This document shows positions 14,853 through 24,242 of a DNA stretch of 64,000 bases, piece after piece. Origin of the DNA: Nitrososphaerota archaeon (GTDB lineage: Archaea; Thermoproteota; Nitrososphaeria; Nitrososphaerales; Gagatemarchaeaceae); contig DAHVLJ010000022.1 of the NCBI GenBank assembly GCA_027320425.1, forward strand, positions 1-64,000, written 5' to 3'. Each line of letters opens with the position of its first letter. Position 1 is the first letter of the stretch. A program made the position numbers and the translations under genes. The notes under the pieces were generated by a model. That model was not told the DNA's origin. It ran no database searches and was given only the letters and a program-made list of their open reading frames with translations.

Positions 14853-15509
14853 TTAGGCCGTGAGGCCCTCTCGTTCGTCCTGGGCCAGTACGTTCGCAGG
14901 GATTTCGGGGAAGCTTTCTTTCATCCTCTGCTCGGCCACAGCCGAAGCCTCGTCAAGGACCTTCTGAGCGTCTTCATTCGCGAGGTCGAAGTTTAGAGAT
15001 ATCCCTCCTGCGGTCCCTGCGTCTACCAGGACACTGCTCAGCAGACCGGATAACTCACCTATCTCTTTGTCGGCCTCAGGTAGAGCGATGCGCAGGTCTT
15101 CCTTCATGTTCCTTATCACCGAGACGGCTGGTGCGAGGGTGTTCGCGATTTCCCCGAGGTCGTTTATCGTCCCGAGCCTTAGGGCGATCTGTTCCATCGC
15201 GAGCTGGGCTTGCGTCACCATCTTGCCCATCTTCCTCACTTCCGTCAGTTCGTTGGCGTAGACCACCGCATGCTGCATATCGTGTTTGGCAAGGGCAGAC
15301 ACGACGTTTCTGAATATTGTAGCATCGCGTTGCTTGATCCTGTTCACTGTCCCATCGAGCTGGGAAATGAGCAACCTGACTTGTCTGTTCGCTTGTTCGA
15401 GCTGGGTCTTTAGCGGGGTCGTCGCGCGCGCTGATCCTCTGAGCCTATCGACCAGGCCTGGGCCCTGGTCTTTCCGATCCCATTTGGATGAAAAGCTCAT
15501 GGACGTCAT
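14853..15509 (-). CDS. cdvB: CdvB/ESCRT-III (Snf7) family protein
   Basis: A 218-aa, mostly helical protein of the Snf7/CdvB superfamily, which forms membrane-remodelling filaments in archaeal cell division and vesicle release. The basic N-terminus and helix 1 (TPLKTQLEQANRQVRLLI), the motif IKQRDATIFRNVVSAL, the paired helices with YANELTEVRKMGKMV and the long amphipathic AMEQIALRLGTINDLGEI fit the family. The tail is short: no C-terminal winged helix is seen and no clear MIM2 Pro-rich motif, so it may be one of the shorter CdvB paralogues. The box CCAATATACC (15526-15535) is upstream. CdvA and CdvC are not in the window. Confidence 0.87.
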   Translation of the reverse strand: MTSMSFSSKWDRKDQGPGLVDRLRGSARATTPLKTQLEQANRQVRLLISQLDGTVNRIKQRDATIFRNVVSALAKHDMQHAVVYANELTEVRKMGKMVTQAQLAMEQIALRLGTINDLGEIANTLAPAVSVIRNMKEDLRIALPEADKEIGELSGLLSSVLVDAGTAGGISLNFDLANEDAQKVLDEASAVAEQRMKESFPEIPANVLAQDEREGLTA

Positions 15510-19612: not shown

Positions 19613-20701
19613 TCAGCCGACCCACGAATCTAACTTCGAGGGGCCCGATTCTGAACGCTGGATGTCGGCGACTCGCACACCAATCAACCGCACTGGCTTC
19701 CCCCATGTCTCGAACTCGTCGAGGAGCCTTTCGATGGTCTCGAGCAGGGGACATTCACTGTCCGTGTGGCTGACCAAGGTTCTCTCCCTGGTGTGGGTCT
19801 CGAATCCCCTGAACCTGATTTTGATGCCTGCGACCTTGTAGGAATAGCCTGCTGATTTCAGCCTCCGCATCAACTCTGATGCTCCGTCCGCAGCCTCGCC
19901 CCTTACCTGGCGGAAGTCCTTCACATCGTCCTTGAAGGTCCGCTCAACGCTCAGGGATTTCGGCATCTCCTGCTGCCTTACTTCCACATTCTCCTGGCCG
20001 TGGATGACCCCCCACAGCCAGACCCCGTTCTTTCCGAACCAGGTGAGCAACTGCTTGCCTTCGAGCTCCTGCAGCTGGCTGATCGTGGCGATCCCCTTTT
20101 CGTTCAGGAAGTCCCGGGTCTTCGGGCCTATCCCAGGGACCACCCCAACTGGAAGAGGCGCGAGGAAGCCGGCCACGCCGCTGAATGGGACCACTGTCAT
20201 GCCGTCGGGCTTGTTCCTGTCCGAGGCTATCTTCGCCGATGATTTGTTCGGCCCGATGCCGATAGAGCATGACAGGCCGTGTTTCTCCCGGACTGCTTTC
20301 TTGACCTGGAGTGCGTATGCCGTGGCTGTGCCTTCGTCTCCCGCCTTGCTGGTCACATCGAGATACGCCTCGTCGATGCTCCCCTGCTCGAACCTGTCCG
20401 CGAAGCCCTTCAGAGTAGCCATGACCTGCTCCGAGACCCTCTCGTATAGCCCCCAGTTGGGGGGCATGTATGTCGCCTGAGGGCACAGCTTGAACGCCTG
20501 CGAAATGGGCATCCCAGACCTCAGGCCGAACTTTCTAGCTTCGTATGAGCAAGCTACAACTACACCCCTTCCCTTCCCACCTTCAGGGTCCGCCCCCACC
20601 ACAACCGGACTTCCCTTCAGTTCGGGCCTCTCTCTTACTTCAGCCGAGACATAGAACGCGTCGAGATCGACGTGTAGAACGGTCCTTCTTTCGGATGACA
20701 T
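19613..20701 (-). CDS. dinB: Y-family DNA polymerase (Dpo4/Pol IV)
   Basis: Translesion polymerase of 362 aa. The catalytic carboxylates are visible in HVDLDAFYVSAE (D11, D13 region) and in SIDEAYLDVT; CSYEARKFGLRSGMP is the fingers loop. The helix-hairpin-helix GVVPGIGPKTRDFL and a little-finger domain with SLSVERTF follow. The C-terminus KLDSWVG resembles a PCNA-binding box (QxxLDxFF) in weak form. It starts 7 nt after the DUF72 gene stop on the same strand, so the two form an operon, an association seen in other archaea. Confidence 0.94.
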   Translation of the reverse strand: MSSERRTVLHVDLDAFYVSAEVRERPELKGSPVVVGADPEGGKGRGVVVACSYEARKFGLRSGMPISQAFKLCPQATYMPPNWGLYERVSEQVMATLKGFADRFEQGSIDEAYLDVTSKAGDEGTATAYALQVKKAVREKHGLSCSIGIGPNKSSAKIASDRNKPDGMTVVPFSGVAGFLAPLPVGVVPGIGPKTRDFLNEKGIATISQLQELEGKQLLTWFGKNGVWLWGVIHGQENVEVRQQEMPKSLSVERTFKDDVKDFRQVRGEAADGASELMRRLKSAGYSYKVAGIKIRFRGFETHTRERTLVSHTDSECPLLETIERLLDEFETWGKPVRLIGVRVADIQRSESGPSKLDSWVG

Positions 20702-20708
20702 CTGTCAG

Positions 20709-21497
20709 TTACGACCCGAAAAGCGTCTGCTGTTCGGTACCCTGTGCCTTCCAGTCCAACCCCATAAGACCCAGGAGCCTTCGGAACTCGTTTGCCGACT
20801 CGGGGCTGAAACCAGCGAAGTGGTTGTTGAAGAAGACGTAGCCAGACTCGAACTTTGATGCGTTACCCTTGACGGCGGTCGCCCAGCGCTTCATGTCCTC
20901 GGACCTGTCCTTCTGAACCCCCGTGAACTCGGTAATCTCCCTATCACCGACCATTCTGACATAGATGAAGTCTGCCGTCACCTCTGGCGGAGTCTCAACG
21001 TACTGGTTCAGAGACCAGATCATGGCGATGTTGTTCTTCCTCAGGAGGGAGTATACCTCAGGGGTGAACCATGATTTGTGCCTGAACTCCACAGCGTGTT
21101 TGAAATCGGGGCTAAGATGCGAGATGAAATCCTTCAGGACGTCTTGGTGCGTGCTCAGCTTGACGGAAGGCGGGAGTTGAATGGCAATCGGGCCGAGCTT
21201 GTCTTTCAGTTTGCTCAAGACGCTATAGAAGTAGACGAGGTTCGACTCCGAGTCCTTGAGCTTCTTCTCATGGGTTATCTTCTTGGGGAGTTTTGGAGAG
21301 AAGACGAACCCTGCCGGGGTGTTGTTCCTCCATTGGTTGACCATGAACTGGTTGGGGACCCTGTAGAAGCTCGAGTCTATCTCGACGCAATTGAAGATTT
21401 TCGAGTAAAATGAAAGGTAGTCCTTTGCAGGAAGCCCCTTTGGATAGAACAGCCCTTCCCAGTCTTTGTAGGACCATCCGCTGCAACCTATCCTCAT
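20709..21497 (-). CDS. DUF72 TIM-barrel protein (YecE-like)
   Basis: A 262-aa DUF72 protein. Hallmarks are RIGCSGWSYKDWEGLFYP at the start, YLSFYSKIFNCVEIDSSFYR, LGPIAIQLPP, HAVEFRHKSWF, YVRMVG and YVFFNNHFAG. The biochemical role is unsettled; a link to Fe-S or nucleic acid metabolism has been suggested. ATG 21497 is preferred over 21548 because the TATA-like box (21548-21557) abuts the upstream ATG. Its stop is 7 nt before the Y-family polymerase ATG. Confidence 0.88.
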   Translation of the reverse strand: MRIGCSGWSYKDWEGLFYPKGLPAKDYLSFYSKIFNCVEIDSSFYRVPNQFMVNQWRNNTPAGFVFSPKLPKKITHEKKLKDSESNLVYFYSVLSKLKDKLGPIAIQLPPSVKLSTHQDVLKDFISHLSPDFKHAVEFRHKSWFTPEVYSLLRKNNIAMIWSLNQYVETPPEVTADFIYVRMVGDREITEFTGVQKDRSEDMKRWATAVKGNASKFESGYVFFNNHFAGFSPESANEFRRLLGLMGLDWKAQGTEQQTLFGS

Positions 21498-21547
21498 ATT
21501 TTCAAGGTCCAAACCGAGCCCGTTCCAGACTCTGGAAACGTTCGCCA

Positions 21548-21557
21548 TATTTATTTA
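21548..21557. promoter_or_regulatory. TATA-like box between divergent DUF72 and coiled-coil genes
   Basis: ATATTTATTT lies between DUF72 (-) and the coiled-coil/SPFH operon (+). It is about 35 nt from the TTG at 21588, and can be read as AAATAAATAT on the other strand, about 55 nt from ATG 21497. Confidence 0.45.
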
Positions 21558-21587: not shown

Positions 21588-22136
21588 TTGTCTCAGGGCA
21601 ATCCGGACATCAGGCAGCAGGTAGATGCAAACAGGGGGATCGCGAAGAAACTGGAGCTCCTCATACCTGGCCTTAGAGGATACAGAACGAAGGAAGACCT
21701 GAGAGCATCTGACTCGATGCTGAGGAACCAGGTGGCAGACAAGCTCGACCACGTGAAGGACAACCTGCAGCAAGTCAGGAAGCAGGTGGCGTCGAACAAC
21801 GACCTTACCAACCTGACGAATGTGGGTTCGCTCATTGCTCAGATACAAACGCTGAGCGGGGAAGTGAGGCATGCGGCTCAGGGCTATTCTGGTTGGGCGG
21901 CGTCAATCCAGATGACCGACGACAAACTCAACAAACTGTACGAATATGACTACGCGTTCGTAAGCTCCGTATGGCAGCTTGACCAGGCGACTGCTCCCGG
22001 GGCGCTTAGCTATGATGGCGCCGCCCCCAACTCGATACAGAGTCTTCTGAACGGACTTTCCCGGTCAGTCGGCGACATTAGGCAGAAGTGGTCGCAGAGA
22101 ATCGAAGCTATTCAGGGCGTAGCCCTGGGACAGTGA
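21588..22136 (+). CDS. Helical coiled-coil protein, first gene of the SPFH operon
   Basis: A 182-aa, nearly all-helical protein with no membrane segment. It starts at TTG 21588. Heptad-like stretches cover roughly residues 35-95 (NQVADKLDHVKDNLQQVRKQ) and the C-terminus has SLLNGLSRSVGDIRQKWSQR. The stop TGA overlaps the next start by one base (TGATG), so it is coupled to the SPFH gene. In Bacillus the SPFH protein YdjI is encoded with the PspA-family protein YdjF; this protein is not obviously PspA, but could fill an adaptor or filament role. The family is not recognised. Confidence 0.65.
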   Translation: MSQGNPDIRQQVDANRGIAKKLELLIPGLRGYRTKEDLRASDSMLRNQVADKLDHVKDNLQQVRKQVASNNDLTNLTNVGSLIAQIQTLSGEVRHAAQGYSGWAASIQMTDDKLNKLYEYDYAFVSSVWQLDQATAPGALSYDGAAPNSIQSLLNGLSRSVGDIRQKWSQRIEAIQGVALGQ

Positions 22137-23224
22137 TGGCGATGGTATTCGGAAAGAAGAGCGGCGCAGAGGTACCGGCGACCGGCGGGAGCGCCATGGG
22201 GTCCACCACCTTTGCGTGGCCGGACGACCAGAAAGTGAACAGTGCGCTTTGGAAGGCTCCGCGACAGATCAGACTCAACGACAACGTGGTGGTCAGGGAG
22301 GACGAAATCGCCGTGTTCTACAGGGACGGGAAGGCGCTCACGTACTTCGACCAGCCTAACCGGTACGCGCTTACCGACTTCAACGCCCCGGTCGTCGGGA
22401 AGCTGCTGAAGTTCTTCACAGGAGTCACTCAGTGGGCTGAGGTGTACTACATACCGAAGAGATACATGGATGGGAAGTTCGGGAGCTCACAACCATACCA
22501 GTTCACTGACCCGACCTTCGGCATCATCAACCTGAGGGTGTTCGGGGAATACAGGTGGAAGATCTCGTCTCCTGAGCTCTTCATCAACCAGTTCGTCGGG
22601 ACTTTCAGCGCTGAGACGTCTGGGGAAGTCGAAGACAGGCTAAAGGAGCAACTCGTCATACTCGTCTACAACGCCCTGGGGAAGATGAAACAGCAGGGAC
22701 TGAAGGTGACAGACCTTGCGGCAAACCTCACCAACATAGAACAAGAGGTCCTGGCCACCGGACCCGACCATCTGGGCCAGTATGGAATAGAGATCAACAA
22801 GATTTCGGGTCTGACCATAAGCCTCCCCGACGAAGTCCAGAAGGCGATCGATACCCGGTCAGAGATGCAGGTCCTCGGAGTTAGCTACATGCAATACCAG
22901 ACGGGCAAAGCCATAGACGACGCCGCCAAGAATCCGAGCGGGGGCGCGGGCACGTTCGCCGGACTCGGTGCGGGTATCGGAGTCGGAGGAGTAATCGGCG
23001 GATCGATGGCTCAGGGGATGGGACAGAGCATGAACCAGCGGAGCTGTCCAAACTGCAGTTCCCTTGTGTCGGCGACAGCGAAGTTCTGTCCCAACTGCGG
23101 ATTCAGCTTTCCAGCCGCGCCAGGAGCGCCCACACCTGCGGGTGCCAGCAAGTTCTGTCCTAACTGCGGCAGCGCTATAACCGCCGGGGCTAAGTTCTGC
23201 AACAACTGCGGGACCAAGGTATAG
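22136..23224 (+). CDS. SPFH (YdjI-like) protein with C-terminal zinc ribbons
   Basis: A 362-aa stomatin/prohibitin-type protein. The N-terminal half has VVREDEIAVFYRDGKALTYF and an SPFH core with RVFGEYRWKISSPELFINQFVG, then LKEQLVILVYNALGKMKQQG. Next comes a Gly/Ala linker (about residues 260-300) and two double-Cys ribbons: CPNC...CPNCG and CPNCG...CNNCG. This matches the COG4260/YdjI group. YdjI recruits PspA to stressed membranes in Bacillus. There is no clear transmembrane helix, so membrane contact would go through partners. Translation starts at ATG 22136 or ATG 22142. Confidence 0.85.
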   Translation: MAMVFGKKSGAEVPATGGSAMGSTTFAWPDDQKVNSALWKAPRQIRLNDNVVVREDEIAVFYRDGKALTYFDQPNRYALTDFNAPVVGKLLKFFTGVTQWAEVYYIPKRYMDGKFGSSQPYQFTDPTFGIINLRVFGEYRWKISSPELFINQFVGTFSAETSGEVEDRLKEQLVILVYNALGKMKQQGLKVTDLAANLTNIEQEVLATGPDHLGQYGIEINKISGLTISLPDEVQKAIDTRSEMQVLGVSYMQYQTGKAIDDAAKNPSGGAGTFAGLGAGIGVGGVIGGSMAQGMGQSMNQRSCPNCSSLVSATAKFCPNCGFSFPAAPGAPTPAGASKFCPNCGSAITAGAKFCNNCGTKV

Positions 23225-23234
23225 GTGCGAGAAG

Positions 23235-24242
23235 ATGTTCTGTCCAAAGTGCGGGGCACAGCTGCCGGACGACGCTGGCTTCTGTTACAAGTGCGGCGCG
23301 AAGGTCGCGCAGTCCACTTCCCCGCAGCCACAGAAACCCTCCCAAGAAGTAATCGCCCCCTCAGGGGCGACATCCCTGAAGTGCCCGAGCTGCGGAGCGC
23401 CCATCAACCCCAAGTTCGGCGAGATGTTCGTCACGTGCGAATACTGCGGAAGCAGCGTCTCCTTGGGTAACGAAGGTTGGAAGAGCATCGACAAGCACAC
23501 CATGTTACCGATCAAGATCAGCCAGCAAGATGACTTACTCAAAGAGATTCACGGCCTGATGGACCATGGGCTGCTTCACAGGCATCTTCAGGAGTCATCA
23601 ACGCTGGAAGAGGTAAACCTGGCGCTCGTCCCCTATTGGCTCCTACCGGTCTCAGCGAGGACATCGCTGGTCGCCGTGGACATTGCGGCAGAGGCTGGGC
23701 AGATCGCCACGACGGCCGCATTGGCTGGCATCATGGGAGGCGCCATCGGAGGTGGCAGAGACAATGGGTTCGGGGGAGGGGGGCTGGTCACCGGGATGAT
23801 GCTAGGAACGATGATGGGAGGAGGCGGGTTCGCGGGCGGCGGCCAAGGAAACCGCAGGTCCTACCAAATGGACAACGACTACAATTTCCCGATCGTGGGG
23901 CTCAAGGCCCTAACCGAATATCAGCCGAAGGACTACCAGTTCAACCTCACGGACAGGGTGCTGTTTGACGCGACCAAGGTGAAAGGGGTGAAGGTCCTCA
24001 ATGGGGACGTAGGCGAAGACGTCGCACGGATGCAGGCCAAGACGCTCGTAGACCAACTGCAGTCGCAGAAGGCCCATTCTGCACATCATATGATTCAGGA
24101 ACTGAACACCCAGTCGGATGTGGGCGAGGCGGAGCTGCTTCACGCGCCTGTCTGGTTCGCCCGCTATGCCCACAAGAATGGGAAGATAGTCCTCGTGATT
24201 GACGCCAACTCCGGCGGGGTCATCAACAGCGTTGGGCTATAG
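23235..24242 (+). CDS. Zinc-ribbon protein with Gly-rich membrane-like segment
   Basis: A 335-aa protein. Residues 3-24 hold a double zinc knuckle (CPKCG...CYKCG) and residues about 54-75 a second one (CPSCG...CEYCG). Then comes an alpha/beta region with EVNLALVPYWLLPV, a Gly/Met-rich hydrophobic stretch near residues 160-200, and a C-terminal domain ending APVWFARYAHKNGKIVLVID. It starts 10 nt after the SPFH gene and so is the third operon member. Its zinc-ribbon plus hydrophobic layout parallels YdjG/YdjH, the partners of YdjI, but homology cannot be asserted by eye. Confidence 0.7.
   Translation: MFCPKCGAQLPDDAGFCYKCGAKVAQSTSPQPQKPSQEVIAPSGATSLKCPSCGAPINPKFGEMFVTCEYCGSSVSLGNEGWKSIDKHTMLPIKISQQDDLLKEIHGLMDHGLLHRHLQESSTLEEVNLALVPYWLLPVSARTSLVAVDIAAEAGQIATTAALAGIMGGAIGGGRDNGFGGGGLVTGMMLGTMMGGGGFAGGGQGNRRSYQMDNDYNFPIVGLKALTEYQPKDYQFNLTDRVLFDATKVKGVKVLNGDVGEDVARMQAKTLVDQLQSQKAHSAHHMIQELNTQSDVGEAELLHAPVWFARYAHKNGKIVLVIDANSGGVINSVGL

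Follow-up and report, generated by a model that had tools for sequence, protein, structure and literature searches.

Organization of the operon

The window, i.e. the whole stretch of 64,000 nucleotides that was analyzed, derives from a 0.9-Mb assembly that is 53.5% complete and contains three consecutive genes on the forward strand, which we labeled g1, g2, and g3 (Table 1). There is a one-base overlap (TGATG) between g1 and g2, and 10 nt separate g2 from g3. All three genes are under purifying selection, with dN/dS values of 0.055–0.139 in comparison with relatives. A TATA-box-like element is positioned ∼30–40 nt 5′ of the TTG start codon of g1, and an alignment of related loci recovered it, at constant distance and with sequence variants, in 16 of 16 cases. 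The overlap and 10-nt spacing, the purifying selection, and the conserved TATA-like element together establish g1-g2-g3 as a genuine operon, as originally predicted for the coordinates in Table 1. A search against a library of defense systems returned no weighty match. The TATA-like element touches the start codon of a divergent DUF72 gene, next to which a Y-family DNA polymerase is encoded on the same strand.

Table 1. Position of the operon and of neighboring features in the window
Feature	Position	Strand	Description
CdvB-like gene	14853–15509	-	Pfam Snf7 E 6.5e-4, below cut-off
Y-family DNA polymerase gene	19613–20701	-	divergent neighbor
DUF72 gene	20709–21548	-	divergent neighbor
TATA-box-like element	21548–21557	+	tatttattta; 5′ of g1
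g1	21588–22136	+	TTG start; 182 aa
g2	22136–23224	+	362 aa; SPFH/Band_7_1 of YdjI type
g3	23235–24242	+	335 aa; two N-terminal zinc ribbons, YdjG-like

g2 is a YdjI-type SPFH protein

The central protein g2 matches PF13421 (Band_7_1) with an E value of 5e-32 (111.7 bits against a cut-off of 24) and PF13240 with an E value of 4e-14 (52 bits against a cut-off of 25). The latter match corresponds to two C-terminal zinc ribbons that are preceded by a Gly-rich linker. No transmembrane helix was apparent from hydropathy, the best 19-residue value (1.44) falling in the Gly-rich linker. With a Band_7_1 domain above the cut-off, zinc ribbons at the C terminus, and no transmembrane helix, g2 qualifies as a member of the YdjI-type SPFH proteins, and the resemblance to YdjI noted in the original prediction is hereby confirmed.

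Profile searches for g2 and g3 were made without the zinc ribbons, through which whole-protein profiles drift. The SPFH profile of g2, the relatives of which were compared in alignment A5, reaches solved stomatin with an E value of 6e-6. It also matches UBR4, perhaps through the zinc-ribbon end. A Band_7_1 gene is likewise present in Sulfolobus acidocaldarius.

g3 resembles the zinc-ribbon protein YdjG

Pfam places both zinc ribbons of g3 at the N terminus. The structural model of g3 features β-rich regions, a Gly-rich stretch of low confidence (about 161–203), and a confident C-terminal α/β domain, and it has no significant match in the PDB according to Foldseek. With two zinc ribbons and a C-terminal domain, g3 has the layout expected of a YdjG-like protein. 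A ribbon-free profile built from archaeal g3 sequences only matched Bacillota proteins from the loci L065 (E 2.8e-16), L062 (E 1.4e-11), and L063 (E 4.2e-10). Judged by profile similarity, g3 is a distant homologue of the zinc-ribbon protein that Bacillota encode between pspA and the SPFH gene, i.e. in the place of YdjG; the likeness was measured on the pspA-linked Lachnospiraceae protein of L065, which stands in for YdjG of Bacillus subtilis.

The third protein had initially been described as a zinc-ribbon/hydrophobic protein similar to YdjG or YdjH. Its ribbons and its homology to YdjG agree with that description, but its hydrophobic layout does so only in part: the transmembrane segment of YdjG has no clear counterpart in g3 of the window by hydropathy (best 19-residue value 1.33), whereas the g3-like protein of L062 attains 2.83 and some other archaeal relatives reach 1.8–2.1. 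The comparison to YdjH as a zinc-ribbon protein had to be abandoned. According to passages of PMC11237479, YdjG of B. subtilis carries two zinc ribbons and YdjH a TPM domain. Inspection of the surroundings of the archaeal units revealed no TPM gene, and among the loci a TPM profile derived from the protein of L062 matched L062 alone.

Among 84 archaeal loci, g3 lies directly downstream of the pair formed by g1 and the SPFH gene in 40 and upstream within 3.5 kb in 13, and it was undetected in 28, which makes g3 an optional component. In L010 (9111–11219), the g3 frame is lengthened to 702 amino acids, with the g3 domain at the C terminus.

g1 is a predicted helical bundle

The model of g1 (AlphaFold2, pLDDT 84) consists of two short N-terminal helices followed by four longer ones (residues 35–69, 73–94, 111–134, and 149–179). 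The protein is thus predicted to be a helical bundle, and it belongs to a family without a described function, consistent with the initial impression of an unfamiliar helical protein. Its N terminus bears the motif KKLxLxIPGxxGYRxxED and forms short basic-amphipathic helices, the amphipathicity of which is moderate.

A Pfam search of g1 returned no family over the cut-off. Weak matches below the cut-off to HBM, spectrin, and apolipoprotein were dismissed as generic coiled-coil similarity. The sole notable relative among curated models is NF047596 (LIMLP_15305, Leptospira), which g1 matches with an E value of 1.8e-11 and a score of 44 bits, where membership in the family requires 210 bits. The 48 g1 sequences in alignment A1 all match this model as well (best E value 2e-15), yet far under the cut-off, so that by the rule of NCBI g1 is a relative and not a member of the Leptospira family. 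The literature that we found does not describe a function for the Leptospira protein.

Comparison of the g1 model with the PDB by Foldseek gave no match with an E value ≤0.001. A CdvB2 filament appeared at rank 43 (E 0.98, TM 0.17), a monomer model being a limited test in this respect, and the comparison of the AlphaFold2 monomer with the PDB revealed no ESCRT-III fold in g1. Profile comparisons of g1 with PspA and with CdvB were blank, but they had no power, because the positive control (PspA with CdvB) was blank too.

g1 and the SPFH protein form a conserved pair

Homologues of g1 are present, mostly in single copy, in 180 of 349 Thermoproteota genomes and in 63 of 243 Thermoplasmatota genomes. 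They were also detected in 17 of 101 Chloroflexota genomes and in 49 of 158 genomes of one Chloroflexota class. The pair of g1 and SPFH thereby reaches about half of the sampled Thermoproteota and a quarter of the sampled Thermoplasmatota.

We identified 79 loci with a relative of g2. Where such loci held both genes, g1 was located ≤150 bp upstream of the SPFH gene and in the same orientation in 54 of 56 cases; the two exceptions (L057 and L058) carry a true PspA gene between g1 and SPFH. Conversely, SPFH followed ≤150 bp downstream of g1 in 33 of 37 12-kb loci found through g1 and in all 60 short loci, which were chosen as the best-scoring matches and therefore lean to close relatives. Gene neighborhoods thus show that g1 and SPFH are constantly paired across the archaea and in part of the Chloroflexota, usually together with zinc-ribbon partners, and chance cannot explain why the pair was kept over such distances. 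Conservation of the neighborhood, which had been named as a check of the original prediction, holds across Thermoproteota and beyond.

In Chloroflexota outside the class sampled above, 11 of 16 g1 loci have no SPFH gene within 150 bp (among them L135, where SPFH is found at 328 bp), indicating that g1 can act apart. In one Chloroflexota group (L138, L140, L141, L143, L144, L146, L147, and L149), g1 without SPFH lies beside a conserved cluster resembling molybdenum-hydroxylase-type oxidoreductases. L243 (5864–7694) encodes a very divergent g1. The 431-amino acid protein that follows it begins like an SPFH protein and has a weak zinc ribbon at the C terminus, but no Band_7 model matches it.

PspA accompanies the pair in some Chloroflexota and the SPFH protein in Bacillota

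YdjI-type SPFH genes of Bacillota occur with pspA and without g1. The gene orders are pspA-SPFH in L064, pspA-(g3-like)-SPFH in L065, and SPFH-(g3-like)-TPM in L062, and these gene sets match the published pspA-ydjGHI set of B. subtilis. In that organism, YdjI brings PspA to the membrane, and PspA foci need YdjI, YdjG, and YdjH (PMC8581546). The archaeal unit shares with pspA-ydjGHI a Band_7_1 SPFH protein that has C-terminal zinc ribbons but lacks a transmembrane helix, and a YdjG-like partner with two zinc ribbons in the same operon; its SPFH and YdjG-like parts are of known kinds. In contrast to the B. subtilis set, it lacks pspA and the TPM gene and adds g1, which is absent from the Bacillota examples, and in the genus of the window it has no clear transmembrane anchor.

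In Chloroflexota, pspA adjoins g1 in 16 genomes and is followed by SPFH wherever the sequence extends far enough. This arrangement (L057, L058, L252, and others) preserves the order and strand of g1 and the zinc-ribbon SPFH gene known from archaea. It differs in the insertion of pspA (PF04012 with an E value of 7e-50 in L058), in a DUF4178 domain on g1 (as in L057 and L058), and in an upstream membrane/HTH/zinc-ribbon gene, and no g3 was seen. In other Chloroflexota, g1 directly precedes SPFH. The 16 pspA-linked members form one branch of the g1 tree within the Chloroflexota (support 91; the tree was searched quickly, with SH-aLRT as the sole support measure, and is arbitrarily rooted), indicating that PspA joined late and once in that lineage.

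No PspA over the cut-off was detected in 25 genomes of the window's genus, in the source genome (53% complete), or in 14 other archaeal carriers, and pspA is absent from the window and from all archaeal loci examined. The helical g1, encoded directly upstream of SPFH like pspA in L064 and L058, could on this basis be a functional replacement of PspA, that is, a membrane-remodeling protein recruited by the SPFH protein, and its moderately amphipathic N terminus would suit such a role. However, g1 and PspA are neighbors in the 16 Chloroflexota genomes, and their occurrence in one operon argues for g1 as a partner and not as a stand-in. Furthermore, the helices in the predicted bundle of g1 are shorter, and its fold has no meaningful match in the PDB, PspA and ESCRT-III folds included. 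We therefore consider a replacement of PspA by g1 improbable and discarded the original proposal that g1 takes the place of PspA.

CdvB is not a conserved neighbor

The original prediction had also pointed to a nearby gene for CdvB, a homologue of ESCRT-III. A CdvB-like gene is indeed present in the window (Table 1), but its relevance was not borne out. The gene is encoded on the strand opposite to the operon, with other genes between, and CdvB is near the unit in 7 loci only, all from Nitrososphaerota or close kin. PF03357 (Snf7) matches 14 of 32 carriers and 0 of 10 from Thermoplasmatota, although part of the missing matches are missed detections, because the model is insensitive in archaea and misses its cut-off even in Sulfolobus acidocaldarius. 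Passages of PMC10936438 ascribe minimal ESCRT systems to Thermoplasmata.

A joint SPFH-ESCRT system of archaea that serves vesicles or repair, in which the unit would cooperate with ESCRT-III, would be in line with the distance of about 4–8 kb to CdvB in several Nitrososphaerota loci. It would also fit some methanogen ESCRT loci that, in passages of PMC10936438, include SPFH proteins with zinc ribbons. These Meth_adaptin loci likewise place a zinc-ribbon SPFH protein of archaea in a membrane-trafficking context; however, of the Vps4, ESCRT-III, and adaptin-like proteins that the same passages list for them, none recurs beside g1-SPFH. In view of the strand, the intervening genes, and the few loci concerned, we regard such a system as very improbable, and no link between CdvB and the g1-SPFH unit is visible.

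Proposed function of the g1-SPFH unit

Taken together, g1-g2-g3 is probably the form that the YdjI-type SPFH membrane module takes in archaea, one that does without PspA. The unit most likely serves as a scaffold, made of the SPFH protein and its constant partner g1, that acts in membrane stress or in quality control. The membrane-stress role can fairly be inferred by association, and it is drawn from the bacterial relatives only. The passages of PSP and ESCRT surveys considered here (open-access main text) mention neither the constant helical partner nor an archaeal form devoid of PspA nor the intermediate seen in Chloroflexota.

Stomatin and flotillin oligomerize on the inner membrane face. 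By analogy to these SPFH proteins, g2 may oligomerize there as well. The helical bundle of g1 would be the cognate subunit that binds g2, and the short basic-amphipathic helices at its N terminus might contact lipid. The zinc ribbons of g2 and g3 would hold the complex together. In L221 (6618–7619), the SPFH protein possesses a SHOCT domain (PF09851, E 5e-8) instead of zinc ribbons, which fits an assembly role of the ribbons; SHOCT domains are tied to PSP systems in passages of PMC11237479. The assembled complex might detect membrane under stress, act as a scaffold on it, or deal with the membrane proteins located there. PspA would then be a membrane-remodeling effector that was added to the SPFH scaffold in Chloroflexota and separately in Bacillota, and the archaea described here would employ another effector or none.

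The associations with PspA in Chloroflexota and Bacillota could, however, be unrelated to the archaeal function. The unit would then be an SPFH scaffold of general purpose, for the quality control of membrane proteins or the organization of microdomains, comparable with HflK/C, prohibitin, or flotillin, without a particular link to PspA-type stress repair, and PspA would be a coincidental later partner. Such a scaffold would account for the absence of PspA from the archaeal carriers tested and for the g1 tree, on which PspA was inserted once, as a derived event, and other SPFH families work with proteases and chaperones (PMC2636767). Nevertheless, we consider it unlikely, though less so than the alternatives discussed above: the same SPFH subfamily is tied to pspA in two bacterial phyla with differing gene orders, YdjI as its sole studied member works with PspA (PMC8581546), and no protease gene recurs in the g1-SPFH loci inspected.

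Under the favored reading as a PspA-free YdjI-type module, the single-copy pair with its strict order in two archaeal phyla and part of the Chloroflexota is a strong candidate for a membrane guard. Most sampled archaeal carriers have no recognizable PspA, and membrane protection in such archaea is poorly known. We tentatively suggest, as a possibility somewhat short of even, that g1-SPFH is an old two-protein membrane machine independent of PspA, and that PspA is a late and repeatedly recruited client. If true, this would turn around the prevailing picture, in which SPFH proteins are accessory to the phage-shock response. The g1 family offers a concrete target, and the pair allows a test of which is the earlier component of membrane-stress modules, the SPFH scaffold or PspA.

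In the genus of the window, the proteins of the unit have no clear transmembrane helix, and a small neighboring gene with hydrophobic helices is absent. Many other archaeal lineages encode small multi-helix hydrophobic proteins beside g1-SPFH that could be membrane anchors. Proteins of 112–125 amino acids with several hydrophobic helices adjoin the pair in L224 (3273–3623), L229 (5396–5773), L235 (6492–6869), L246 (7294–7632), and L043 (7112–7450).

Further neighbors of g1-SPFH include, in one archaeal group, an arrestin-fold protein with a weak zinc-ribbon match in L224 (1144–1734; Arrestin_N E 5e-7), similar proteins being encoded in L227, L228, and L229. A TPR-like protein (∼310 amino acids) paired with a zinc-ribbon protein (∼490–515 amino acids) is found beside g1-SPFH in L221, L235, L236, L237, L238, and L242.
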